Assembly: GCF_017308015.1 (NCBI RefSeq)
Contig: NZ_JAFKFW010000015.1
Location: 46,761-110,760 of the forward strand
Length of the DNA stretch: 64,000 nucleotides
Direction: 5' to 3'
DNA from: Allobosea sp.
Lineage (GTDB): Bacteria; Pseudomonadota; Alphaproteobacteria; Rhizobiales; Beijerinckiaceae
Shown piece after piece: positions 11,542 through 43,870 of the stretch. Both the position numbers and the translations under genes were made by a program. Below the pieces are notes generated by a model. That model was not told the origin of the DNA, did not search any database, and saw only the letters and a program-made list of their open reading frames with translations. Every line of letters starts with the position of its first letter. The stretch's first letter is position 1.

Positions 11542-12120
11542 TCAGAGATAGGGCGGCGTGCAGGCGCTGACGACGATGCAGCGTTCCGTCCCGATATTGC
11601 GGTAGCGATGCGGGATGCGGCTGTCGAAGAGATAGGCATCGCCCGGCTTCAGCACCTTGATCTGGTCGCCGACCGTGACCTCCAGCTCGCCGGCCAGCAC
11701 GACCCCGCCCTCATGGGAATCATGCTTGAGCATGGCGATGCCGGTATCGGCGCCGGCCTCGTAGGATTCGTGCAGAATCTGCAGATTATGGGCCTGGGCA
11801 TCGCCGACCTGGCGGAAGGACATCTGACCGCGGCTTTCTCCGCCATTGACCTGATGAAGGCGCGAGGTCAGGTCCAGCAGGTCCGAGGCCTCGAAGAAGA
11901 CCTTGTCGCGCGGTGTCCGTTGCTCGTCAAAAAAACTCACCATCGTCATCGGGATACCGTCGAGAATCTTGCGCAACGACGCGACGGAGGGACTGTTCCG
12001 ATTCTGCTCGATCAGCGAGATCAGGCTATGGGTCACGCCGGAGCGCGCCGCGAGTTCGCGTTGGGAAAGCCCGGCCGCGACCCTGATCTCCTTCAGCCTT
12101 CCGCCGACGTCAAAGCTCAT
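11542..12120 (-). CDS. XRE-family regulator with C-terminal cupin domain
   Basis: A 192-residue protein of the PuuR/SutR type. The helix-turn-helix (residues about 8-60) includes LSQRELAARSGVTHSLISLI, and the cupin (about 110-185) includes LKPGDAYLFDSRIPHRYRN. Such proteins repress amine or amino-acid catabolic operons and sense a small ligand through the cupin. It is divergent from the amidohydrolase/ABC operon starting at 12441, with 320 bases between, and is the likely local regulator of that operon (inference). Confidence 0.85.
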   Translation of the reverse strand: MSFDVGGRLKEIRVAAGLSQRELAARSGVTHSLISLIEQNRNSPSVASLRKILDGIPMTMVSFFDEQRTPRDKVFFEASDLLDLTSRLHQVNGGESRGQMSFRQVGDAQAHNLQILHESYEAGADTGIAMLKHDSHEGGVVLAGELEVTVGDQIKVLKPGDAYLFDSRIPHRYRNIGTERCIVVSACTPPYL

Positions 12121-33354: not shown

Positions 33355-33380
33355 GGAACCCGGCCGATCCCGCTGACGTT
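33355..33380 (+). promoter_or_regulatory. EcfG-type promoter (GGAAC-N17-CGTT) upstream of the broken AI-2E-type gene
   Basis: GGAAC at 33355-33359 and CGTT at 33377-33380, 17 bases apart, match the alphaproteobacterial general-stress sigma factor consensus exactly. The element ends 50 bases before the gene start. Confidence 0.75.
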
Positions 33381-33430
33381 GATCCTGCCGACGCGCCAGG
33401 GCGGAGCGGTTCGTGCGTTGGAAACATCCC

Positions 33431-34116
33431 ATGCTCAGCTCATCGGCCTGGCGGCCCTTTCCGCGCGACATGGCGGAGCCGGACCCGGTGGAGGACAGCC
33501 CAGAGGTCACGGCCGACGAGCATGACCTCATCGTCCACTACGCCATCGTCAGTATCTTCGTCATCCTGGCGACGGGATCGCTGTCCTTGGCCAGGGTCAT
33601 CGCCATGCCTGTTACGGCGGGCGTCATCTTCGGCCTCGTGCTCGGACCGCTCGTCGATTGGCTGGCGCGTTACCAGGTGCCGCAGCACGCGGCTGCATGG
33701 CGATCGCCCGGCTTGCGGGGCTGCCCTTCCCGGTCTTCTGGGGGGCGCTCGCCTTCCTGCTCAACTATCTGGCCTTCATCGGCCCGGTCATCGTGGCGAT
33801 CCTGCTACTGGCGGGCGCGCTGCTCGATGCATCCTCGATCCTTGCCGCGCTTTGGCCGGCGTCGGCCTGCTATATTCTGCACCTGATCGAGGGCAACGCG
33901 GTCACGCCCGTGTTCGTCGGCAATCTCCTGATGATCTCGCCCTTCCTCGTCTTCATCGCCTTCATCTTCTGGCTCTGGCTGTGGGAGCCTGTGGGCGCCG
34001 TGCTCTCGACGCCGATCGTCATCGTGGCCATGGTCGCGCAGGAGGAGTTCGCGCGCTATCGCCGCGATCAGGCGAAGGCCGATGCCGAGGAGGCCGGGGA
34101 AGTTCAGGCCGCCTGA
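33431..34116 (+). pseudogene. AI-2E family transporter, internally deleted and frameshifted
   Basis: Two fragments of one family lie in different frames. The first, up to about 33690, ends in VIFGLVLGPLVDWLARYQVP, which is the first helix pair of the family. The second, from about 33695 to 34116, resumes with LPFPVFWGALAFLLNYLAFIG, the family's late signature, and runs to a natural C-terminus. Roughly the middle half of a normal 350-residue protein is missing at the junction and the frame is shifted, so the gene is inactive. An intact stress promoter remains upstream. Confidence 0.75.
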
Positions 34117-34127
34117 ACGCCGTTTCC

Positions 34128-34152
34128 GGAACAGAACGCGCGCATAAGCGTT
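34128..34152 (+). promoter_or_regulatory. EcfG-type promoter (GGAAC-N16-CGTT) for the YqjD/YqjE-like pair
   Basis: GGAAC at 34128-34132 and CGTT at 34149-34152 with a 16-base spacer. The start codon of the first gene is 83 bases downstream. Confidence 0.75.
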
Positions 34153-34234
34153 GCCCGATCGAGCGGTGGCCCTTGCGGTCGCCGCGCCTCCTCGCCACCA
34201 TCCGAATTTCCATCAGCGACAGGACGACACTGCC

Positions 34235-34594
34235 ATGGCCACAACGACACCCGCGAAACGTCAGGCCGCTGCCGCCGCCAGGCGTGCGAAGGCCGAGGTC
34301 GAGGCTGGCGCCGAGGAGATCGCGGCCGAGACGCGGCAGGCAGGAGCCCGCGCCCGGCGCCAGGCGAGTGCGCTTGAGGACACCCTGACCCGCAGCGCGG
34401 AGGATATCGCCGCGACCGTCAGCGAACGCCTGCGCGCCGTCGGCGTGGACACCGACAAGATGGTCGACGTCGCCAAGGAGCAGGCGACCGAGTTGCAGCG
34501 GCTGATCGAGGACGAGATTCGCGAGCGGCCCTTGCGCGCGCTCGGCGTAGCGGCCGCCATCGGCCTGTTCGTCGGCTTCCTGTCGGCTCGCTGA
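34235..34594 (+). CDS. YqjD/ElaB-like (DUF883-type) protein
   Basis: A 119-residue protein with a long charged, Ala-rich helix (heptad-like, residues 10-95) and one C-terminal hydrophobic helix (ALGVAAAIGLFVGFLSAR), preceded by the characteristic RERPLRALG. This is the plan of E. coli YqjD/ElaB, inner-membrane proteins that bind ribosomes in stationary phase. It is 2 bases before the next gene. Control by the stress sigma factor is suggested by the upstream site. Confidence 0.8.
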   Translation: MATTTPAKRQAAAAARRAKAEVEAGAEEIAAETRQAGARARRQASALEDTLTRSAEDIAATVSERLRAVGVDTDKMVDVAKEQATELQRLIEDEIRERPLRALGVAAAIGLFVGFLSAR

Positions 34595-34596
34595 TC

Positions 34597-35022
34597 ATGT
34601 TCGGGGGGATCGGATCCTTCATCGCCTCGGAGGTGTCCGGGGTGGTGAGGCGCAATGTCATCGTCTACGGCCTGTTCGGCCTCGCCGCGCTGCTCATGTT
34701 CTGCGCTGGCGGCTATGCGCTGAATGCCCTGCATACCGTTCTGGCGCTGCAATACGGCGCTGTTGCCGCCAGCCTCTGGATTAGCGGGGGTCTTTTCCTC
34801 GCGGCCTTGCTGGCGCTGGGCGTGGCCGCCATCGTCAAGGGCCGGCGCCGGGCGCCGCGCCCTGCGGCGACGGCGGCTCTTGCGGCTGCGCCGCTCGCCG
34901 CAAAGCTCATCGGCTCGCGCCTGAGCTGGCGCATCGCGCTGGCCGGCGGGATTGTCGTGCTTGGCGCGATTCTGGGTCGCCAGATAGTCGCGGGCGGCTC
35001 GGATGACCAAGGGGAAGCCTGA
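34597..35022 (+). CDS. YqjE-like / phage-holin-superfamily membrane protein
   Basis: A 141-residue protein with two central membrane helices (VYGLFGLAALLMFCAGGYAL and SLWISGGLFLAALLALGVAA), a basic linker, and another hydrophobic stretch near the end. The order YqjD-like then a two-helix protein matches the yqjD-yqjE arrangement in enterobacteria and many rhizobia. Its function is unknown. It is certainly co-transcribed with the preceding gene, given the 2-base gap. Confidence 0.7.
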   Translation: MFGGIGSFIASEVSGVVRRNVIVYGLFGLAALLMFCAGGYALNALHTVLALQYGAVAASLWISGGLFLAALLALGVAAIVKGRRRAPRPAATAALAAAPLAAKLIGSRLSWRIALAGGIVVLGAILGRQIVAGGSDDQGEA

Positions 35023-35101
35023 TTCCGCGCCAAGCGGCGGCATTTACGAGGCATGTCTTTTTACATAGGGATGTCGTCATGCGTCCCTTAACAAGACCTG
35101 C

Positions 35102-36493
35102 ATGTCTGCTCAGGTGAGGCCTCGCAACCGCCTTCCGATCCCGGTTCTTCCGGTCATCGGCGCGCGCTTTCGCTCGGCGTCGACCACGATCATCGCGATT
35201 GGCGTCGTGGCGGCGGCGGTCGTCCTGGCCGCCTGGATCAACCAGCAGGCGCGACAGACAGCGGACCGTGTCTCCCACGCGATCGAGATCCGCGAGCGGG
35301 CCGAGCGCTTCCTCGGCCGGATGCGCGATGCCGAGACCGGGCAGCGCGGCTTCCTGCTGACCGGCGAGGCCGACTATCTCGAGCCTTTCACCGAGGGGCG
35401 GGCTGCGGCGGGCCCCGAGCTCGATATTCTGGCCGCGCTGGTCGATGCCGATCCGGTCCAGAAGGAGCGGGTCGCGACGCTGCGCACGGACATGGCCGTC
35501 AAGTTGGCGGAGCTCGACCAGACGATCTCGCTGGAGCGCGCCGGCCGCCGGACGGAGGCGCTGGAGCTGGTTCGCAGCGAAAGCAGCATCGCCGCCATGG
35601 ACCGGCTGCGCGATACCGTCCAGGCAATCCAGCTAAGCGAGAATATCCGGTTGAGGTCGCTTTACGGCCGGGAGGAGCGCCGCCGTCTCTGGGGCAGTAC
35701 CGGAATCGTCATCGCGCTCGCCGGCCTCGCCTTCGCCGCCTGGCAGCAATTGCGTCGCCGCCAGCGCCGCAGCAATGCGCTTGCGATCAGCAACGCCGAG
35801 CTCGAGCGGATCGTCGGCGAGCGCACCAGCCAGCTCGAAAGCGAGCGCCTGCGCATCGAGGCGCTGCTGCGCGACGTCAATCACCGGGTCGGCAACAACC
35901 TCGCCATGGTCTCGGCCCTGCTCAATGTCCAGAGTCGCCAGACGCGCGAGCCCGCGGTCAAGGCGGCGCTGGCGCAGGCCCAGTCACGTATCCAGGCGAT
36001 CGCTGCCGGGCAGCGTCGCCTGCGCCTGGACATCGAGACCGACGAGATCGATGCCCGGCCCTATATGGAAGACCTGCTCGCCGAGATCGGCAAGTCGGCA
36101 GAAGGCCGGCCGATCCGGATCGAGCTCGACATGGAATCGATCCGCCTGCCCGGGCGCGATGCGGTTTCCTTCGTCGTCATCGTCAACGAACTCGTGACCA
36201 ATGCCATCAAGCATGCCTTCCCCGACGGCCTGTCCGGGCAGATCGTCATCCGCTTCGCGCCGACGGATTACGAGGGCGAGCCCGCGCTTGCGATGACGAT
36301 CGAGGATGATGGCGTCGGCATGCCCGCGGAGACTGTCAGCAAGGGGCTGGGCCAGACGGTGATCGCAAGCCTGCTGCGCAGCATGCGGGCGATGATGACC
36401 TCGCAGCCCCTGCACCCGGAGCAGGCTGAGCGTCCGGGTACGCGGGTGGTGATCGTCTTTCCGAAGCGGGAAATCCTTCCGGCTCAGGCCTGA
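35102..36493 (+). CDS. CHASE3-domain sensor histidine kinase, HisKA_2/HWE type
   Basis: A 463-residue membrane sensor. One helix (about 27-47), a periplasmic CHASE3 domain (about 48-190, with RDAETGQRGFLLTGE) and a second helix (about 197-216) precede a HisKA_2 dimerisation domain with the phospho-acceptor histidine 261 in LRDVNHRVGNNLAMV. The ATPase domain is intact: the N box is in VNELVTNAIKHAFPDG and the G box in IEDDGVGMP. Kinases of this type feed PhyR in the general stress response. It lies 80 bases after the YqjE-like gene and converges with a single-domain response regulator. Confidence 0.9.
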   Translation: MSAQVRPRNRLPIPVLPVIGARFRSASTTIIAIGVVAAAVVLAAWINQQARQTADRVSHAIEIRERAERFLGRMRDAETGQRGFLLTGEADYLEPFTEGRAAAGPELDILAALVDADPVQKERVATLRTDMAVKLAELDQTISLERAGRRTEALELVRSESSIAAMDRLRDTVQAIQLSENIRLRSLYGREERRRLWGSTGIVIALAGLAFAAWQQLRRRQRRSNALAISNAELERIVGERTSQLESERLRIEALLRDVNHRVGNNLAMVSALLNVQSRQTREPAVKAALAQAQSRIQAIAAGQRRLRLDIETDEIDARPYMEDLLAEIGKSAEGRPIRIELDMESIRLPGRDAVSFVVIVNELVTNAIKHAFPDGLSGQIVIRFAPTDYEGEPALAMTIEDDGVGMPAETVSKGLGQTVIASLLRSMRAMMTSQPLHPEQAERPGTRVVIVFPKREILPAQA

Positions 36494-36503
36494 AGCCGCC
36501 GCG

Positions 36504-36884
36504 TCAGCCTTGCAGCGCCTTGAGGCGCGGCGAACCCACGGCGCTTTTGACAAAGGCCGCGACCTCGCGTGTCGAAAAGGGCTTGCGCAGGAAGCGGACG
36601 CCGCGCAGAGCCGTGGGCACCTCATGCGGCGCCGACCCGGAGACGAAGGCGAAGGGTGTTCCGGTTTCCTGGAGGGTGCTCGCGACATCGAAGGTCTTGC
36701 CGCCGACGACGTCGATGTCGAGCAGGGCGCAGGCAAACTGCTTCGTCGTCATCCGCCGCGCCTCGGCCACGGATTCGACCACGATCAGTTCCACTCCGTC
36801 GCCGAGCTGCTCGGCCACGGCACTCTCGATGTCCATCGCGATGAACGGGTCGTCCTCGACGATGAGTACGCGGATATCAGCCAT
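36504..36884 (-). CDS. Single-domain response regulator (FAT GUY-like)
   Basis: A 126-residue receiver domain without an output domain. The acidic pocket is in VLIVEDDPFIA, the phospho-acceptor aspartate in ALLDIDVVGG, and the conserved lysine in RFLRKPF. The segment PFAFVSGSAP is in the place of the PFxFATGYG motif of FAT GUY regulators such as SdrG, which take part in alphaproteobacterial general stress signalling. An EcfG-type promoter precedes it. It is convergent with the CHASE3 kinase, its probable partner. Confidence 0.85.
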   Translation of the reverse strand: MADIRVLIVEDDPFIAMDIESAVAEQLGDGVELIVVESVAEARRMTTKQFACALLDIDVVGGKTFDVASTLQETGTPFAFVSGSAPHEVPTALRGVRFLRKPFSTREVAAFVKSAVGSPRLKALQG

Positions 36885-36926
36885 CGACCGGCTCTCTCAC
36901 TCACTGCAATCCTGTTACGCGGTCTC

Positions 36927-36951
36927 AACGTGACAGGATTGGCGATGTTCC
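36927..36951 (-). promoter_or_regulatory. EcfG-type promoter (GGAAC-N16-CGTT) for the single-domain response regulator
   Basis: On the minus strand GGAAC lies at 36951-36947 and CGTT at 36930-36927 with a 16-base spacer. It ends 42 bases before the start codon. Confidence 0.75.
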
Positions 36952-37047
36952 TGCTCTGGCGCCCCAGCATGGCGGAAAGCTTTGGATTTGAGTCGATTTT
37001 GAGCGGTCAAGGTTAGCAAAAGGTAATTGCGTCTTCGTTTCGCAGCG

Positions 37048-37542
37048 TCACCGCCGGCGTCCCGGTTGGACGAGTGTCAATTCGAGAGCAGTCACGCCGA
37101 TCGCGACATTGATGCCCCGATTGCCCTGTATCGGCAACGGCAGCAAGGTTGCTTCATTGTCCTTGCCGCCGGAAAGTGCGTTGCCCGGAGAGGATGGCGC
37201 GGTCACGCTGCCGCTCTTGTAGGGCCCGCTCAGCGCGCCCAGCGGCGCGCGCGCATAGGGGCCGTAGACGCGCCAGACCATGGTCGCGGTCCGGACCGCG
37301 CCGAGATCCAGGCTGAAGCTGCGCACGACACCCGTATAATGCTGTGTCGGCCCGCGGCGCGGCCTGAACCGGCACTCGGTCGGGCGCTGCGACTTGGTGA
37401 TGGCGGCGAAATTGCTGCCGACGGTGCAGGACAGGCGCCCCGTCGGGGGGCCGGAAGGCTGCGCGGCGGCAGGCTCGTACATTCCTATAAGGCCGGCTAA
37501 GGCGAGAGCGGCTAGACAGGATCGGGAATGCCCTCGGCTCAT
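37048..37542 (-). CDS. DUF992 family exported protein
   Basis: A 164-residue protein with a signal peptide (CLAALALAGLIGMYEPAAAQ). The mature part has the DUF992 pattern: GRLSCTVGSNFAAITKSQR, CRFRPRRGPTQHYTGVV, a central LSGPYKSGSV and LPIQGNRGINVAIGVTALEL near the end. The function of the family is unknown; members are common secreted proteins in Rhizobiales. A well-placed EcfG-type promoter suggests stress-induced expression. Confidence 0.8.
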   Translation of the reverse strand: MSRGHSRSCLAALALAGLIGMYEPAAAQPSGPPTGRLSCTVGSNFAAITKSQRPTECRFRPRRGPTQHYTGVVRSFSLDLGAVRTATMVWRVYGPYARAPLGALSGPYKSGSVTAPSSPGNALSGGKDNEATLLPLPIQGNRGINVAIGVTALELTLVQPGRRR

Positions 37543-37572
37543 CGCGAATGTTCCTCGTGAACTGGCGGGACA

Positions 37573-37597
37573 AACGCCCCAAGAAACCCATAGTTCC
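37573..37597 (-). promoter_or_regulatory. EcfG-type promoter (GGAAC-N16-CGTT) for the DUF992 gene
   Basis: On the minus strand GGAAC is at 37597-37593 and CGTT at 37576-37573 with 16 bases between. It ends 30 bases before the start codon. Confidence 0.75.
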
Positions 37598-37645
37598 GCG
37601 CTAGGGAACCGGGAGGAGTTTGTAGCGTTGGCGTTTCATCTTGGC

Positions 37646-37894
37646 ATGGGAATGTCGATGTCCGTGAGTCGTCCGCTTGGGGAAACCCCCACAATAATCG
37701 ATCCCGATTTCGTGATGGCCCTGCCGCCATTCTGGGAGCTCGAGGATCTGATCGCCACGGGCCTCGATCGGGAGGCTGCCCTGGCGGTGATGGCTGCGCG
37801 TCGCAGCGGCTTGCGGTTGGTCGGCGAAATCGCTTTGTCGGGCGACGTGCAAGGCTTTCTTCTGCATTTCGGGACGGACGCGTTTCCGCGCTGA
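37646..37894 (+). CDS. Small hypothetical protein
   Basis: An 82-residue frame, with alternative starts at 37652 and 37658. The sequence FVMALPPFWELEDLIATGLD and REAALAVMAARRSGL looks like a compact globular protein and not a shadow frame. No family is recognised. It faces the DUF992 gene divergently and converges with the extensin-like gene, 5 bases between ends. Confidence 0.45.
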   Translation: MGMSMSVSRPLGETPTIIDPDFVMALPPFWELEDLIATGLDREAALAVMAARRSGLRLVGEIALSGDVQGFLLHFGTDAFPR

Positions 37895-37899
37895 TTCCG

Positions 37900-38958
37900 C
37901 TATTGGCAGAAGCGGGACGCACGAGAGCGGCGCTCCTGGATATCCACATGAAGATGATTGGCATGGGCGGCGTCCGAACCCGGCCCCAGCGTCGTCATGA
38001 ACGCACCGCAGGCCGATTGCCTGACGGCATCGAGGAAGCGGTTCTGCGCCAGGCCTCCGGGCTTCTCCACAACGACCTCTGACGCGTTACCGCCGCTCCC
38101 CAGCTTGAAGGCGAAGATGTCCAGAGCCTGACCGGTGGCATGCTCGCTGATCGGTCCCGCCGAGGCACGGTTGCGGCGCCGGCACTCATGGCCGCCGCCG
38201 ACGCGCAAGGCCGCAAGATCCCGGTCGAAATGCCCGCGCACCAGCGGCTGGACGCTGCGATCGAGCCAGTCGGCCAGCGTTCTCGCCATGGCGCAACTCA
38301 GCAGCGGAGGCGGTTCGAAGGATACGGTCACGGCTCCACCCGATCCCGTGACGGCAAGAGCTCCGACGCGGACGGGCTCGCTGATCCGGCATGCGGAATC
38401 GGTATCCCCCGCGGCTGGGGCGGCGGCGTTGACCCGGTTGCCGGGGATGGCGGCCAGGATCGACAGGCAGGAGCTCTGCGTCGGTGGTGCGGTTGAGCCG
38501 CCGCTATTCGCAAGAGCCGGCGCCCCGCTCACCGGTTCGGGCTTTGCGGCTCCATCCGGGACCGAGGGGCGCAACTCTGGCGGCCGCGGCGGAGGGCGCT
38601 GCGTGGAGAATGGTGCCGTTACGGGTGCGGCCGTGCTCGCTAGGGGCACGACCCAGAGTCCGATGGCAGTAAGCGTGGCCGCAATGCTCCGTCCTGTCCG
38701 GTGCGCCGCGCGGATGGCCCTTGACGGCGTTGGGACGAGGCTGGGCGAGGGGCCGGCTAGCTGTCCAGGGCCGAGGCGCTCGCGATCGTGATGCTGGTCA
38801 GGCCGGCGAGCGCGAGGGACAGGATTTCCGCGCTCGGCGCCCCCGGTTGCACGATTCCGGTGAACAGCGCCCCTCCGATCGATAGAGCCGCGATAGCGGC
38901 CGAGAAGCAGGTCGTCGCCATGATCCACGCCCTCCTCAACTGCAAACGAAACCGTCAT
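37900..38958 (-). CDS. Extensin-like C-terminal domain protein, start uncertain
   Basis: The C-terminal 190 residues match the extensin-like family (PF06904), widespread in rhizobia: PLLSCAMARTLADWL, then CRRRNRASAGPISEHATGQALDIFAF and AHANHLHVDIQERR with two histidines that suggest a zinc peptidase-like fold. A Pro-rich linker and a hydrophobic export segment (IAATLTAIGLWVVPLAST) precede it. The only in-frame starts before that segment are the ATG at 38958 and a GTG at 38928; both make the N-terminus overlap the small gene at 38757-38921. The next start, GTG 38649, would lose the export signal. Confidence 0.7.
   Translation of the reverse strand: MTVSFAVEEGVDHGDDLLLGRYRGSIDRRGAVHRNRATGGAERGNPVPRARRPDQHHDRERLGPGQLAGPSPSLVPTPSRAIRAAHRTGRSIAATLTAIGLWVVPLASTAAPVTAPFSTQRPPPRPPELRPSVPDGAAKPEPVSGAPALANSGGSTAPPTQSSCLSILAAIPGNRVNAAAPAAGDTDSACRISEPVRVGALAVTGSGGAVTVSFEPPPLLSCAMARTLADWLDRSVQPLVRGHFDRDLAALRVGGGHECRRRNRASAGPISEHATGQALDIFAFKLGSGGNASEVVVEKPGGLAQNRFLDAVRQSACGAFMTTLGPGSDAAHANHLHVDIQERRSRASRFCQ
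38757..38921 (-). CDS. Small two-helix membrane protein
   Basis: A 54-residue protein, MATTCFSAAIAALSIGGALF onward, with two hydrophobic segments separated by a QPGAPSAE turn. GAGGAGG lies 10-16 bases before the ATG at 38921 and an EcfG-type promoter lies 47 bases upstream. It overlaps, in another frame, the 5' part of the extensin-like open frame, so one of the two starts must be different from what the frames suggest. Function unknown. Confidence 0.5.
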   Translation of the reverse strand: MATTCFSAAIAALSIGGALFTGIVQPGAPSAEILSLALAGLTSITIASASALDS

Positions 38959-38967
38959 TCCTCGCGC

Positions 38968-38992
38968 AACGCATCATTTCCGTCCGGGTTCC
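38968..38992 (-). promoter_or_regulatory. EcfG-type promoter (GGAAC-N16-CGTT) for the small membrane protein/extensin-like genes
   Basis: On the minus strand GGAAC is at 38992-38988 and CGTT at 38971-38968 with 16 bases between. It lies between the phyR terminator and the small gene. Confidence 0.75.
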
Positions 38993-39004
38993 CGGATGGC
39001 AAGG

Positions 39005-39036
39005 AAAAAGGCCCGCGGGCAGGTGCCGCGGGCCTT
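39005..39036 (-). terminator. Rho-independent terminator of phyR
   Basis: An 11-bp stem AAGGCCCGCGG / CCGCGGGCCTT with a 7-base loop. On the minus strand it ends in a T-run (CCTTTTTCC), directly after the phyR stop at 39063. Confidence 0.8.
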
Positions 39037-39062
39037 GATCGTCTTCGACTGGAAGCGAAGCG

Positions 39063-39857
39063 TCAGGCGGCCTTGCGGCCGGCGCGGCGGTCGAAGAACA
39101 GGGCCTGGCTGATCGCGGCCTTCACGGCCTCAGGCTGGAACGGCTTGGTGATCAGGAAGGCCGGTTCCGGCCGGTCGCCGGTGAGGAGCCGTTCGGGATA
39201 GGCCGTGATGAAGATTACAGGCACGTCGATCGAGGACAGGATCTCGTTGACGGCATCGAGGCCCGAGCTGCCATCGGCGAGCTGGATGTCGGCGAGCACG
39301 AGGCCGGGCCGCTTCTTGGCGACGAGCGCGATCGCCTCGCGCTGAGTGCGTGCGACGCCGGTGACGGTATGTCCGAGCTCCTCGACCATCGTCTCGATGT
39401 CGAGCGCGATGATCGGCTCGTCCTCGATGATCAGCACTTCGGTTGCGACTTGCTCGGCGATTTCCTGGCCTGCGGTCTGGATCAGCGTCGAGGCTTCCGC
39501 TGCTGTGATGTCCATCACTTTTGCGACGTCGTCGATCGGGAAGCCCTCCACCGTCCGCAGCAGGAAGGCCTGGCGCGGGCGCGGCGTCAGCGCCTCGAGA
39601 TTGCGCTCGGCGGGCGCGCGCGCGAGCTCGACCACGGGCGCTGCGGCATCGACGCTGGCCGACGACCAGAGCTTCAGGAAGGTTCTGTAGAGCCCGATGC
39701 GCGGATCGAGATCTCGCGGGAAGCCGGAGGGGTCTGCGACCAGTGCTTCGAGCATGGCGACGACATAAGTATCGCCACTCGGCTGGCTGCCGCAAAGCGC
39801 GCGCGCGAAGCGGCGCAGGTAAGGAAGATGAGGCGCAATTTCTTTTGCAATCGACAT
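39063..39857 (-). CDS. phyR: PhyR, anti-anti-sigma response regulator of the general stress response
   Basis: A 264-residue protein with an N-terminal EcfG-like sigma domain (about 1-130: LPYLRRFARALCGSQPSGD, LTPRPRQAFLLRTVEGF) and a C-terminal receiver (about 138-260: VLIIEDEPIIALDIE, phospho-acceptor Asp190 in VLADIQLADG, FLITKPF). Phosphorylated PhyR captures NepR and so frees EcfG. It is divergent from nepR-ecfG, the classic arrangement. Unlike the other island genes, no EcfG-type site is visible before it; a TTGTCT and an ATTATT 17 bases apart lie upstream and could be a weak housekeeping promoter. Confidence 0.97.
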   Translation of the reverse strand: MSIAKEIAPHLPYLRRFARALCGSQPSGDTYVVAMLEALVADPSGFPRDLDPRIGLYRTFLKLWSSASVDAAAPVVELARAPAERNLEALTPRPRQAFLLRTVEGFPIDDVAKVMDITAAEASTLIQTAGQEIAEQVATEVLIIEDEPIIALDIETMVEELGHTVTGVARTQREAIALVAKKRPGLVLADIQLADGSSGLDAVNEILSSIDVPVIFITAYPERLLTGDRPEPAFLITKPFQPEAVKAAISQALFFDRRAGRKAA

Positions 39858-39934
39858 GAACGCGTCCCTTTTAGCACGTTGAAATAATGGCTTAGGCTGC
39901 ACAAGAGACAAGAAATTTATTTTTGCGGAAGTGC

Positions 39935-39959
39935 GGAACCTTGTTGAGGCAAGGCTGTT
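39935..39959 (+). promoter_or_regulatory. EcfG-type promoter (GGAAC-N16-TGTT) for nepR-ecfG
   Basis: GGAAC at 39935-39939 and TGTT at 39956-39959 with 16 bases between, in the phyR-nepR gap. The first base of the -10 element is T instead of C. It would give the autoregulation known for this sigma factor in other species. Confidence 0.75.
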
Positions 39960-40093
39960 ATTAAGGCGCATTGGTGTCGCCATCGCGACGTGGTTCGGCA
40001 TTGCCGGTGGGACATGGCGAGGCCGGAGATGGCGGGATTTGGAGATACGGGACCGGCTGGAAAAGCCGGCCCGGCGGTGTTGCGAGGGCTGAC

Positions 40094-40315
40094 ATGAACA
40101 GGTTGGATGCAGCGATGACTGAACCGGACGATCCCGACGAAGGTTTCGATCTCGTTATGGACCCGAAGGTGCAGGAATCGATCGGCCGCTCTCTCAAGGC
40201 CCATTACGACGACATCGTGAACGCGCCCGTGCCCGACAAGTTTCTCGTGCTGCTCGCGCAGCTTGAAGCGACAGAGCAGCGTGTATCCGGAGTGTCGCGC
40301 GATGAGTCCCAGTGA
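40094..40315 (+). CDS. nepR: NepR, anti-sigma factor of EcfG
   Basis: A 73-residue protein. The core DPKVQESIGRSLKAHYDDIV and then NAPVPDKFLVLLAQLE is the NepR pattern: two amphipathic helices that wrap around the sigma factor. Its stop overlaps the ecfG start by 14 bases, so anti-sigma and sigma are translationally coupled. The ATG at 40094 gives an acidic N-terminal tail as in homologues. Confidence 0.93.
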   Translation: MNRLDAAMTEPDDPDEGFDLVMDPKVQESIGRSLKAHYDDIVNAPVPDKFLVLLAQLEATEQRVSGVSRDESQ

Positions 40316-40916
40316 TACTGCGCTTGCCGGTCGGACCGAGACACTGGCCCAGGAACGCCGGACCGAAGATTTCAAGGACGGGCTGATCCGCGAGATCCCG
40401 AATCTGCGGGCTTTTGCAGCCTCGCTCTCCGGCTCTATCCAGTTGGCCGACGACCTGGTTCAGGACACGCTGCTGAAAGCCTGGGGTAATTCGGACAAGT
40501 TCGAACCGGGAACCAGCCTGCGCGCCTGGCTTTTCACCATCCTGCGCAACACCTATTATTCCTTGTACCGCAAGCGCGGCCGCGAGGTGCAGGATAGCGA
40601 GGGCACCTATGCCGAACGCATGGCGACCCATGGCAATCAGGAGAGCCATCTCGATCTCGCCGATTTCCGCAAGGCGCTGGCGAAGCTTCCGGAGGAGCAG
40701 CGCGAGGTGCTGATCATGGTCGGCGCCACCGGTTTGTCCTACGAGGAGGCGGCCGAAATCTGCGGCGTGGCGATCGGTACGATCAAGAGCCGGGTCAATC
40801 GTGCCCGCACGAAGCTGGCCGAATTGCTGTCCATCGGCAGCGTCGATGACCTCGGGCCGAGCCACACCAATGCGGCTGCGATGCAGAGGGTTGGTCCCGA
40901 ATCCGTTGGATCCTGA
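40302..40916 (+). CDS. ecfG: EcfG-type RNA polymerase sigma factor (general stress response)
   Basis: A 204-residue ECF sigma factor. Region 2 (about 25-95) includes IREIPNLRAFAASLSGS, ADDLVQDTLLKAWGN and AWLFTILRNTYYS. Region 4 (about 125-185) includes LAKLPEEQREVLIMVGATG and IGTIKSRVNRARTKL. It directs transcription from GGAAC/CGTT promoters, eight of which are in the surrounding 10 kb. The ATG at 40302 lies inside the end of nepR. Its stop overlaps the start of the next kinase gene by one base. Confidence 0.95.
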   Translation: MSPSDTALAGRTETLAQERRTEDFKDGLIREIPNLRAFAASLSGSIQLADDLVQDTLLKAWGNSDKFEPGTSLRAWLFTILRNTYYSLYRKRGREVQDSEGTYAERMATHGNQESHLDLADFRKALAKLPEEQREVLIMVGATGLSYEEAAEICGVAIGTIKSRVNRARTKLAELLSIGSVDDLGPSHTNAAAMQRVGPESVGS

Positions 40917-42568
40917 TGCGTTTGCGGCGTTTCAGCACTGTCAGGACACGTCTGCTGGCATTGCTGGTCGCGATCGCCGTTCCCATAGCCTGCGCCTCGG
41001 CCTTCGCGGCTTACGCGACCTATCGGGCCGCGATCGTCGCGATCGAGGCCGCACAGGCCCGGGCCGCTGATGATTTCGCGGTACGCACCCGCGTCTGGTA
41101 CCGCGGAATGTCGCGTGCCTTGCTCGCCTTCGGCACCACGGCAGCCGAGTTCGGCCTCGATACCCCCGGCTGCCGGGACGCCGGTATCAAGGCGATAGAG
41201 CGGGCCGCGGGGTTCCGCGCTTTTTTCCTGCGGCAGGGGGATGGGAGGCACTGCAGCGGCACCCTCGATCCTGCCCTGACGGCTGAAACGCTGAACGGCC
41301 TCGCCGCCCAGCTCGCGCAGCGTTCAGCCGTCGGGATGTGGAACGGCGCCGATCTCGGCAGGATGCGCTATGATCAGGTGACTGCGGGGGGGCGCCGTTA
41401 TCTCGCGATCCTCGCCTCTGATCTTGCGGGCCCGGATGGCGGTTTGCAGCAGGCGCTTCTGCTCGTCGCACCGGAGCTGCTCGAAAATGTCTTCGCCCTT
41501 GGTGAGGAAGGGCAGGTTCAGAATGTCGCGCTGATCGGGCGCGATGCCGGCGTCGTCGCAAGCCGGGGGGAAGATCGCGACCTGTCATGGCTGCCGCGCA
41601 CCGATCTGATCCCCGAGAAGCACGCACGCTGGACCGGCCTCAACCGGGGCGGCGAGGACAGCGCTTTCGCCACCCGCATGGTCGCCGAGCCGGATTTCTA
41701 CATCGTCGCGAGCTTCGACGATCGTCCGGCCGAGGCGGCCCGGCTGCAATTTGCCGTGCTGCTGCTCGCACCGCTCCTGACGCTCGCCCTGCTCTGCCTC
41801 GTCTGCATGCGGGCGATCGACAAGCATTGCTTGCGCTGGCTGCGCGGCATCGAGGTTGCCGCCCGGTCGAGAACCGCCAATAACCGGGTTCGCGCCGTGG
41901 TGGCGGAGGACATGCCCAGCGATATCCGCAGTGTCGCGGAGGCCTTCAACGGCATGGTCGAGGAGCAGGAAGTTCGCCAGCGCCGCCTTCAGACGGCGCT
42001 GGACGACAATCGTTTCCTCGTCCGTGAACTGCACCACCGGGTCAAGAACAGCCTTCAGGTCGTGCAAAGCTATATCGGCCTGAGCAAGCGCGATCATCGC
42101 GACGAGGCGCGCCTCGCATTGGCCGATGCCGAATGCCGGGTGCATGTGCTGTCGGCGGCCTATCGCTTCACTCTTGCCGATGGCGAGATGCAGCCGGTCC
42201 GGATCGATCTCTTCCTGGACGATGTCGTCACCATGATCTCGAATCTGATCCGCAGCCGCGATCAATGGGTGACGAGCCGGATCGAGACGGCGGCGACGCT
42301 CTCCGTCGACCGGATCATACCCCTCGGCTTCCTTGTCGCTGACGTGGCGTCGCGCGCCCTGAGGGGGACGCCCGGCGTGCGCATTATCGTCGAGGTCGTC
42401 GATGTCGATGCCTCTGCGATCGAAGTCAGTCTCGAAGCCGATCGCGATATCGAGCACAGCGCGCCGCCACGGCTCTTCGCGGGGCTGCTTACCCAGATCG
42501 AGGCCGTGCAGACCCAGGAGCCTCATGGTCGCAGTCTGGGCCGCTGGCGGATCAGCCACCATTCCTGA
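40916..42568 (+). CDS. Membrane sensor kinase-like protein with degenerate ATPase domain
   Basis: A 550-residue protein translationally coupled to ecfG (TGATG). A helix at about 11-36, a periplasmic sensor domain and a second helix at about 277-299 are followed by a HAMP-like linker. The HisKA_2 domain has the phospho-acceptor histidine 374 in VRELHHRVKNSLQVV. The following ATPase domain begins normally (RIIPLGFLVADVASRAL) but the N-box asparagine is replaced and no G-box DxGxG or GLGL is found before the end. It may therefore lack kinase activity and act as a phosphatase or partner for an active kinase. Confidence 0.8.
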   Translation: MRLRRFSTVRTRLLALLVAIAVPIACASAFAAYATYRAAIVAIEAAQARAADDFAVRTRVWYRGMSRALLAFGTTAAEFGLDTPGCRDAGIKAIERAAGFRAFFLRQGDGRHCSGTLDPALTAETLNGLAAQLAQRSAVGMWNGADLGRMRYDQVTAGGRRYLAILASDLAGPDGGLQQALLLVAPELLENVFALGEEGQVQNVALIGRDAGVVASRGEDRDLSWLPRTDLIPEKHARWTGLNRGGEDSAFATRMVAEPDFYIVASFDDRPAEAARLQFAVLLLAPLLTLALLCLVCMRAIDKHCLRWLRGIEVAARSRTANNRVRAVVAEDMPSDIRSVAEAFNGMVEEQEVRQRRLQTALDDNRFLVRELHHRVKNSLQVVQSYIGLSKRDHRDEARLALADAECRVHVLSAAYRFTLADGEMQPVRIDLFLDDVVTMISNLIRSRDQWVTSRIETAATLSVDRIIPLGFLVADVASRALRGTPGVRIIVEVVDVDASAIEVSLEADRDIEHSAPPRLFAGLLTQIEAVQTQEPHGRSLGRWRISHHS

Positions 42569-42587
42569 AGCGTTCGGCTTTAAACGG

Positions 42588-42623
42588 AAACACGTCGGCA
42601 GCCGGTGGACTGGCGACGTGTTT
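42588..42623. terminator. Bidirectional terminator-like dyad
   Basis: AAACACGTCG and CGACGTGTTT form a 10-bp perfect stem around a 16-base centre, exactly between two convergent genes. The T-runs are short on both strands, so efficiency is uncertain. Confidence 0.5.
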
Positions 42624-42643
42624 GCTGGAAACTGATTGGAGCG

Positions 42644-42931
42644 TCAGCGCACGATATGCGTGGCCGGCCCGCCTGCCATTGCCTGCTGCGACGGTGACGC
42701 GATCGCGCGCTTCGCGGTGCTGCGCGAGCGATCGGCATGGTCGACGGCGGCAACCTGCAGGCTCTCGGCATAGCCGCGCTCGCTTGCACCCTTGGCAAGC
42801 GCGATCGTCGTCGAACTCTGGTCATCCGGCGTTTGAAGCCGGGCCCCCAGGGTCAGGCCTGCGACGGCCGTGCCCATGAGGCCGAAGAAGACGATGGCGC
42901 GCATGGCCGGCGCGAGGCTGGACTTCGGCAT
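42644..42931 (-). CDS. Small membrane-anchored protein, stress-island member
   Basis: A 95-residue protein with one N-terminal helix (MRAIVFFGLMGTAVAGLTLG) followed by a polar Ala/Ser-rich tail, probably periplasmic. GGAG lies 8 bases upstream of the ATG and an EcfG-type promoter 47 bases upstream. No family is recognised. The promoter and divergent pairing with the Crp-type regulator suggest a stress role. Confidence 0.65.
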   Translation of the reverse strand: MPKSSLAPAMRAIVFFGLMGTAVAGLTLGARLQTPDDQSSTTIALAKGASERGYAESLQVAAVDHADRSRSTAKRAIASPSQQAMAGGPATHIVR

Positions 42932-42978
42932 GGTTGTCTCCGGGCTGACCGGTCGATTGACCGGCTTTCGGGAGAGAA

Positions 42979-43004
42979 AACGCTCCAAACACGGCTTGGG
43001 TTCC
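42979..43004 (-). promoter_or_regulatory. EcfG-type promoter (GGAAC-N17-CGTT) for the small membrane-anchored protein
   Basis: On the minus strand GGAAC is at 43004-43000 and CGTT at 42982-42979 with a 17-base spacer. Confidence 0.75.
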
Positions 43005-43041
43005 GAAAGTGCGCGCAGTGGCGGGCCTTTCCTGTCGTCGC

Positions 43042-43067
43042 GGAACGGGAAGCGTCCTTGTCGCGTT
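43042..43067 (+). promoter_or_regulatory. EcfG-type promoter (GGAAC-N17-CGTT) for the Crp-family regulator
   Basis: GGAAC at 43042-43046 and CGTT at 43064-43067 with a 17-base spacer, 47 bases before the start codon. It is back-to-back with the minus-strand site at 42979-43004. Confidence 0.75.
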
Positions 43068-43114
43068 GTTCCGAGGCCGGCTTCCCGCCGGCTATCGGGG
43101 GATCGCATTCGACC

Positions 43115-43870
43115 ATGAACATCGCCAACCGGCCGGCACGCCTCGGCACGCCCTGCCTTGCCTGTCCCTTGCGGCTGAAGCCGGCCTTTCGGGACAAGAC
43201 CGATGACGAAATCCGTTTCATCCAGACGATGAAGATCGACCACCGGGCGCTGCGTGCAGGCGCGGACATCATCCATCCCGGCCAGGAAGATGCCGAACTC
43301 TTCACACTCTATTCAGGCTGGGCCTTCCGCTACAAATCCCTGCCGGACGGGCGTCGCCAGATCCTGAACTTCCTGCTGCCGGGCGATCTCGTTGGCTTGC
43401 AGGCCTCGCTGCTCAGCGCGGCCGAGCATGGCATCGAAGCCCTGACCGACGTCGAGCTCTGCGTCTTCCCGCGCAAGCGTCTGTGGGATCTCTTCGTGCG
43501 AATGCCGACGCTGGCCTATGAAATCTCCTGGCTCGGCTCGCGCGAGGAATGCATGGTCGACGACAATCTGACTTCGGTCGGGCAGCGCAGCGCGGCCGAG
43601 CGCCTCGCCGCGCTGATCATCTCGCTCTATCACCGGGCCGATGCGCTCGGGCTCGTCACCAATGACGGCTTCGACTTTCCCCTGTCGCAGCAGCAGATCG
43701 CCGATGCGCTCGGCCTCTCGCTTGTCCATACCAGCAAGACCTGGTCGCGGCTGCGCCGGGAAGGGCTGTTCGCGCTGTCTGCAGGCAGACTCACCTTGCT
43801 GAATCCGCGCCTGACGGCGCGAATGGCCGCGGCCTATGAGCAGATCACGGCACCGCGGCCGCTGATCTGA
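43115..43870 (+). CDS. Crp/Fnr family transcriptional regulator
   Basis: A 251-residue regulator: cyclic-nucleotide-like beta-barrel (about 25-145, LRAGADIIHPGQEDAELFTLYSG) and winged helix (about 170-240, FPLSQQQIADALGLSLVHTSKTWSRL). The N-terminus has a CLAC pair in TPCLACPLR, but not the four-cysteine set of a true Fnr iron-sulfur sensor. The ATG at 43115 is taken because the conserved sequence starts there; the frame remains open upstream. An EcfG-type promoter puts this regulator under the stress response, making it a second-tier regulator. Confidence 0.88.
   Translation: MNIANRPARLGTPCLACPLRLKPAFRDKTDDEIRFIQTMKIDHRALRAGADIIHPGQEDAELFTLYSGWAFRYKSLPDGRRQILNFLLPGDLVGLQASLLSAAEHGIEALTDVELCVFPRKRLWDLFVRMPTLAYEISWLGSREECMVDDNLTSVGQRSAAERLAALIISLYHRADALGLVTNDGFDFPLSQQQIADALGLSLVHTSKTWSRLRREGLFALSAGRLTLLNPRLTARMAAAYEQITAPRPLI

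Follow-up and report, generated by a model that had tools for sequence, protein, structure and literature searches.

The window analysed here is a 64-kb stretch of contig C23 of a 4.89-Mb Allobosea genome, and it contains the genes phyR, nepR and ecfG of the alphaproteobacterial general stress response (GSR), together with a dense set of sites resembling promoters for the sigma factor EcfG. The PhyR of this genome shares 97% identity with its Bosea robiniae counterpart. The nepR gene lies directly upstream of ecfG, the two open reading frames (ORFs) overlapping, and a search of the genome recovered one NepR and one close EcfG. Start codons throughout are predicted, having been chosen from the sequence in this analysis. 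The signalling genes of the block are:

39063–39857, minus strand: phyR, with PhyR_sigma2 and PhyR_sigma-like domains (PF22029, PF22233) and a receiver domain (PF00072); PDB match 4g97 at 1.3e-93
40094–40315, plus strand: nepR (PF18557), the sole copy found in the genome
40302–40916, plus strand: ecfG, with sigma regions 2 and 4; its closest other match in the genome has 40% identity
40916–42568, plus strand: membrane HisKA_2/HWE protein, a PhyT/PhyK-like candidate phosphotransferase, with HRxxN kept and the N box lost
35102–36493, plus strand: CHASE3 HisKA_2/HWE histidine kinase, Pak-like, with an intact N box (NELVTNAIKHAF in 29/29, DDG[VI]G in 27/29)
36504–36884, minus strand: single-domain response regulator, SdrG/Sma0114-like (PDB 2lpm at 1.4e-10; SdrG 5ieb at 5.4e-09)

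Sites were sought with the pattern GGAAC-N16/17-[CT]GTT (YGTT), and stricter genome counts were made with GGAAC-N16/17-CGTT; the EcfG consensus has been given as GGAAC-N16-CGTT (PMC3892343). The window has ten matches, nine of them within 33355–43067 (9.7 kb), whereas the tenth, at 11975 on the minus strand, falls within an ORF. Across 100 shuffles of the 64 kb the chance expectation is 0.94 (standard deviation 0.93; maximum 3). With the stricter pattern the block is the densest 10 kb of the genome, holding 8 of 117 sites against 6 in the runner-up, and the largest 10-kb value in 5000 uniform placements was also 6. A first-pass annotation of this DNA had reported eight sites, each 30–85 bases from the next start, forming a dense cluster around phyR, nepR and ecfG that takes in uncharacterised genes. 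All eight are present exactly where it placed them (the minus-strand ones named by their 5' end), and the cluster stands, being the densest in a genome-wide scan; the spacing holds for seven of the eight (31–83 nucleotides, nt), the nepR site being 135 nt from its gene.

Conservation and clustering of the sites

A PhyR query returned 434 loci, the best 80 of which were fetched; 38 of these are Bosea-type, a grouping made by gene order that includes some loci labelled Rhizobiales, Hyphomicrobiales, Methylobacterium or Beijerinckiaceae, and 42 are others. Orthologues were picked by protein, independently of site presence, and the fractions below count strict-pattern sites before the orthologues in the window and the 38 relatives. 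True orthologues were defined by a cut of 60% identity and coverage; identity or coverage cuts reduced, for instance, 39 hits of the receiver gene to 37 and 36 hits of a gene for an 82-amino-acid (aa) protein to 17 aligned. Box and spacer values give the match to the window in alignments of upstream DNA. The predicted EcfG-type promoters are:

33355–33380, plus strand: AI-2E transporter-like gene, 51 nt to start 33431; 17/17 orthologues; boxes 0.98, spacer 0.52
34128–34152, plus strand: DUF883-like gene, 83 nt to start 34235; 28/28; boxes 0.99, spacer 0.42
36927–36951, minus strand: receiver gene, 43 nt to start 36884; 35/39 hits (2 hits below the 60% cut); boxes 0.99, spacer 0.56 in the other 37
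37573–37597, minus strand: DUF992 gene, 31 nt to start 37542; 28/38; boxes 0.96
37605–37629, plus strand: ninth site, 82-aa gene, 17 nt before the ORF; 35/36; boxes 0.99 in the 17 aligned
38968–38992, minus strand: 54-aa and extensin-like genes, 47 nt to start 38921; 20/21 (54-aa) and 27/35 (extensin-like); boxes 0.98
39935–39959, plus strand: nepR-ecfG, 135 nt to nepR start 40094; 31/39; boxes 0.93
42979–43004, minus strand: 95-aa gene, 48 nt to start 42931; 29/38; boxes 0.75
43042–43067, plus strand: Crp/Fnr gene, 48 nt to start 43115; 10/35, poorly conserved; boxes 0.48

Box agreement with the window is 0.93–0.99 at seven of the nine sites, and spacer agreement 0.30–0.66; footprinting of this kind, with boxes nearly fixed and spacers diverged, backs eight of the nine. 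A reversed-pattern control in the same upstream regions gave one hit in total; the strict site stands before the degenerate kinase gene at 40916 in 1/39 cases and before four flanking genes in 1/98 together. The sites at 37605–37629 (plus) and 37573–37597 (minus) stand back to back, and the extensin-like gene sits behind the 54-aa gene, 235 nt from the site at 38992 (minus). Our gene caller was crude: it scored the sites at 42979 and 43042 as ‘inside’ genes because it had chosen a long upstream start, and it overlooked many genes of contig C8, discussed below. The phyR gene has no strict EcfG-type site within 120 nt upstream in 39/39 loci, and looser patterns found none there in the window either. 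A housekeeping promoter for phyR had been suspected from the alignment; its motif is present in only 4/39, and therefore we make no claim of a phyR promoter. The 135-nt leader of nepR (39960–40093) contains a hairpin-like stretch in a region that is fairly conserved in the alignment.

The genes of the block other than those for signalling are:

33431–34116, plus strand: AI-2E transporter-like gene remnant in two frames (33431–33886 and 33697–34116), shortened in this strain with its EcfG-type promoter kept
34235–34594, plus strand: DUF883_C protein, 119 aa (Pfam PF19029 at 9.1e-08), presumably ElaB/YqjD-like
34597–35022, plus strand: small membrane protein, 141 aa, with transmembrane (TM)-like stretches
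37048–37542, minus strand: DUF992 protein (PF06186 at 1.5e-28)
37646–37894, plus strand: 82-aa protein with a conserved PPFWELE core; codon-position pattern and core seen in 10 compared
37900–38733, minus strand: extensin-like protein (PF06904 at 1.8e-41 on a longer ORF; start uncertain)
38757–38921, minus strand: 54-aa membrane protein, TM-like; third-position substitutions 1313 versus 677/415 in 10 compared
42644–42931, minus strand: 95-aa protein with one TM-like region
43115–43870, plus strand: Crp/Fnr-family regulator

We take the remnant at 33431–34116 to belong to the AI-2E transporter family, for which Pfam gives no hit. The gap between polA and the DUF883 gene is 1057 nt here against 1335–1599 nt in 11 compared relatives, and its longest ORF on either strand is 474 nt against 948–1296 nt in them. 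Family searches matched no family with the 82-aa protein, and Pfam and NCBIfam gave no hit for the 141-aa membrane protein, whose gene is probably co-transcribed with the DUF883 gene.

With good confidence, we read the block from these sequence features as a chromosomal GSR locus of Bosea, in which EcfG most likely drives eight or more transcription units and a phosphorelay probably operates. These units would be nepR-ecfG with the adjoining kinase-like gene, the receiver gene, the DUF883 gene with the genes behind it, the DUF992 gene, the 82-aa gene, the 54-aa gene together with the extensin-like one, and the genes for the 95-aa and AI-2E-like proteins. The result is a set of probable EcfG targets in Bosea with footprint support, which connects the uncharacterised DUF992, 82-, 54- and 95-aa proteins to the stress response.

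Clustering at phyR extends beyond this genus. Across the Bosea-type loci there are 300 sites where 8.2 would be expected, with zero sites in the bins 7–10 kb to one side and 8–10 kb to the other side of phyR. The 42 non-Bosea loci hold 208 against 14.5 expected, peaking within 1 kb before phyR, at the start of nepR-ecfG; clustering is therefore general, with Bosea at the upper end. The first-pass description of the cluster as unusual holds only in degree: the pattern recurs across the 42 other loci, the genome itself has two longer EcfG clusters, and many of its sites are also scattered. We found no open paper treating, by title or abstract, the clustering of EcfG sites round phyR; conserved core synteny of the GSR locus has been described (PMC7083833). 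Three relatives (L047:4033-5841, L059:4081-5889 and L043:6439-7311) have extra genes with EcfG-type sites, none of which occur in the window; by reading, they are ABC-transporter-like in two and transglutaminase-like in one, and they are placed between the 95-aa gene on one side and either crp or the kinase-like gene on the other.

As to why the cluster exists, we lean slightly towards autoregulation plus a few co-inherited genes, with proximity conferring no benefit and Bosea lying at the top of a pattern general to alphaproteobacteria, an explanation compatible with the reading of the block as a GSR locus and favoured by the excess in the non-Bosea loci and its peak before phyR. Set against it, gene content varies among species while the sites persist (ABC-transporter-like and transglutaminase-like genes being examples), which hints at repeated recruitment. 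A less likely idea is that the Bosea phyR locus may act as a collecting point of the EcfG regulon, where genes come and go, most of those that stay have an EcfG promoter, the predicted signalling parts (kinase, receiver, phosphotransferase, anti-sigma factor and sigma factor) are gathered in most species and proximity to ecfG is selected.

The sensing branch

The protein encoded at 40916 has two TM-like stretches (6–36 and 274–302) and retains HRVKN in its dimerization and histidine phosphotransfer domain in 39/39 sequences, with asparagine in the N-box columns in 0/39 and DxGxG in 0/39; the window protein gave no HATPase_c hit. The NCBIfam PhyK model matches it at 6.6e-32, far under the cut-off of that model, and a PDB sequence search returned no match. 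Its AlphaFold model (mean pLDDT, the predicted local distance difference test score, 83.5; pTM, the predicted template-modelling score, 0.50) has fold matches in the PDB to the ligand-binding domains of the chemoreceptors PctA/PctB and to the HWE kinase EL346, the best E-values of that search going to integrative models of chemoreceptor and kinase complexes. The TM-like stretches and these folds agree with a membrane-anchored protein bearing a periplasmic sensor, as expected of a PhyT/PhyP-type regulator. In the receiver, the motifs P[FLI]xFVSG[SA] and LDID are present in 37/37. PhyR, NepR, EcfG, the 40916 protein, the receiver and the CHASE3 kinase occur all together in 28 of the 38 relatives.

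By analogy with characterised systems, the sensing branch is probably a phosphorelay of the Pak-SdrG-PhyT-PhyR type. Phosphate would flow from the CHASE3 kinase (35102) to the receiver (36504), then to the degenerate HisKA_2 protein (40916) and finally to PhyR, which once phosphorylated would free EcfG from NepR. Feedback would arise from the EcfG-type promoters of the receiver gene, of nepR-ecfG and probably of the kinase unit, phyR being without such a site. The first-pass term ‘self-contained’ holds in part, in that the predicted signalling parts lie together with their targets, a sense it had not itself named. With its genes at one place, the probable phosphorelay lends itself to dissection by single-gene deletions.

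An alternative that we consider unlikely makes the 40916 protein a PhyR phosphatase or a pure inhibitor, with the CHASE3 kinase phosphorylating PhyR directly. It has a precedent in PhyP, which was first taken for a phosphatase and restrains PhyR by forming a complex; PhyP showed no phosphatase activity, however, and was renamed PhyT (PMC5898713), and PhyK of Caulobacter crescentus is likewise a phosphotransferase (PMC5964349).

Several observations nonetheless weigh against the GSR-locus reading with its relay. The C. crescentus PhyK transfers phosphate with a well-conserved ATPase domain (PMC5964349), so the loss of the N box alone is not decisive. The receiver has FVSG where SdrG and MrrA have FATG; lacking the PFxFATG(G/Y) motif, it is therefore filed only as SdrG/Sma0114-like, and elsewhere in the genome two receivers in long ORFs carry FVTGY and FATGY. 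The CHASE3 kinase is found at this place in 28/38 relatives. Six loci (L045, L047, L050, L052, L053 and L055), each extending 10 kb in that direction, lack it there along with polA, the DUF883 gene and the membrane gene, and other genes occupy the place right of the receiver; therefore the relay need not be one unit, the phyR side being fixed and the kinase side separable. Five of the 38 loci are too short to show the DUF883-kinase side. Moreover, the CHASE3 kinase gene (0/30 hits) and the membrane gene (0/29) are without a strict site of their own, their co-transcription with the DUF883 unit being assumed, and conservation of the site before the Crp/Fnr gene is poor.

Gene order, inheritance and the wider regulon

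The genes found keep the order of the window in 38/38 Bosea-type loci; in the six loci above, the DUF883-kinase half and polA are absent at this place. In the 27 of 38 with polA at the border, the DUF883-kinase side stands beside both phyR and polA. The earlier suggestion of a mobile module is not supported, in view of this order, the polA border, sites that stop at the borders and a guanine-plus-cytosine (GC) content of 64–69%, as in the rest of the window, where no search for mobility genes was made. A mobile or recently acquired stress island uniting the sigma factor with its targets is thus very improbable, even though small unrelated genes are densely packed under one promoter type, the two halves are apart in six relatives and contig C8 of the same genome does hold a low-GC EcfG cluster in which transposase genes occur, given in addition that PhyR identity declines gradually from 97% to 80% among the Bosea-type loci. 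From the sequence comparisons, the block looks inherited within the genus Bosea rather than mobile.

The genome has 161 matches to the YGTT pattern (backward control 103) and 117 to the CGTT pattern (control 83). The backward count was rejected as a genome-wide null: it exceeds the real count in 7/20 other Bosea genomes, and shuffles and position relative to genes were therefore used. Clusters elsewhere comprise C55:199497-242977 (20 YGTT sites), C8:71368-103762 (15) and, on C33 and C45, minor ones. Among ten proteins searched from the 43-kb C55 cluster (L034-L036) are glycogen phosphorylase, MdoG, DUF892, KGG, DUF6894 and a Crp-like protein. A one-contig relative (G012) shares the phyR cluster and has a cluster of the C55 type as well as at least 4 of the C8 sites among 100 of 128 places listed. 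We had considered that nearly all excess sites lie in five clusters (39/117 CGTT sites in about 1.8% of the genome). This is refuted by the CGTT sites outside the clusters. Of these 78, one in the window and another in a further fetched stretch were set aside, and among the remaining 76 there are 56 intergenic sites, against 23% of random positions, and 42 promoter-like ones, against 10%; therefore the EcfG regulon is probably both clustered and scattered. More broadly, the two arrangements may coexist in an EcfG regulon.

The C8 stretch (C8:68000-106000; L031-L033) has a GC content of 59–67%, below that of the window, with two transposase-like genes among ten proteins searched; it also holds DUF892, PepSY and YflT genes and, by reading, a DNA-polymerase-like operon, and among the hits listed from other Bosea genomes only parts of a 4.7-kb piece are matched. 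By these features, it looks more like an accessory stress island than the window block does.

The C8 stretch also holds a 199-bp element (C8:73991-74189) with an EcfG-type promoter at its head and a terminator-like hairpin at its end. Copies in the same genome are C8:73991-74189, C8:96162-96352 and C33:47878-48046 (L201-L203), with others at L204-L214; no copy was found at the GSR locus of the window. Of 15 fetched copies 14 fit this pattern, the terminator pattern being present in 12 of these and, by reading, the strict promoter in 11. Folding 13 copies to a consensus gives 44 pairs, both sides having changed in 7, with a small covariation term (-0.73 kcal/mol), and a 25–27-aa ORF is intact in 8/14 copies. 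At E ≤ 0.001 a model search has matches in 31 of 67 Bosea genomes, 15 of them at 70 bits or more and many weak; in a sample of the order 5 of 149 other genomes matched, all below 30 bits. An Rfam search of six copies returned no family over threshold. Going by these sequences, the element is probably a Bosea-restricted, stress-induced small RNA family, or else encodes a 25–27-aa peptide.

Comparison with known systems

GsrN-like EcfG-dependent small RNAs are known near the GSR locus (PMC5869019). The Bosea element would share with them an EcfG-headed RNA and a terminator-like hairpin, whereas it is multicopy and Bosea-restricted; a C-rich 5' loop is a GsrN-type feature.

With the alphaproteobacterial PhyR-NepR-EcfG locus, which we take to be the ECF15 system, the window shares the three core genes, an EcfG-type promoter before nepR-ecfG and a HisKA_2/HWE gene by ecfG. 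It differs in having eight more sites in 10 kb, seven of them well footprinted, and a phyR without one. In Sphingomonas melonis the EcfG sites are described as spread throughout the genome (PMC6599016). The relay of strain Fr1 of that species includes PhyT, a phosphotransferase with HRxxN and a degenerate ATPase domain at the phyR locus (PMC5898713), and the likeness to the window extends from this membrane HisKA_2 protein with lost ATPase motifs to a single-domain receiver and a kinase with intact ones. The sdrG and pak genes are scattered there, whereas in the window and 28/38 relatives the receiver and kinase genes lie in the locus, with the receiver motif FVSG against FATG in SdrG.

In the PDB the window receiver comes closest to 2lpm; we take 2lpm and 2m98 to be Sma0114, the receiver of the SMa0113/SMa0114 system of Sinorhizobium meliloti. 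That system is RpoE2-dependent (PMC3616915); in contrast to it, the kinase and receiver genes of the window are convergent and situated at the phyR locus.

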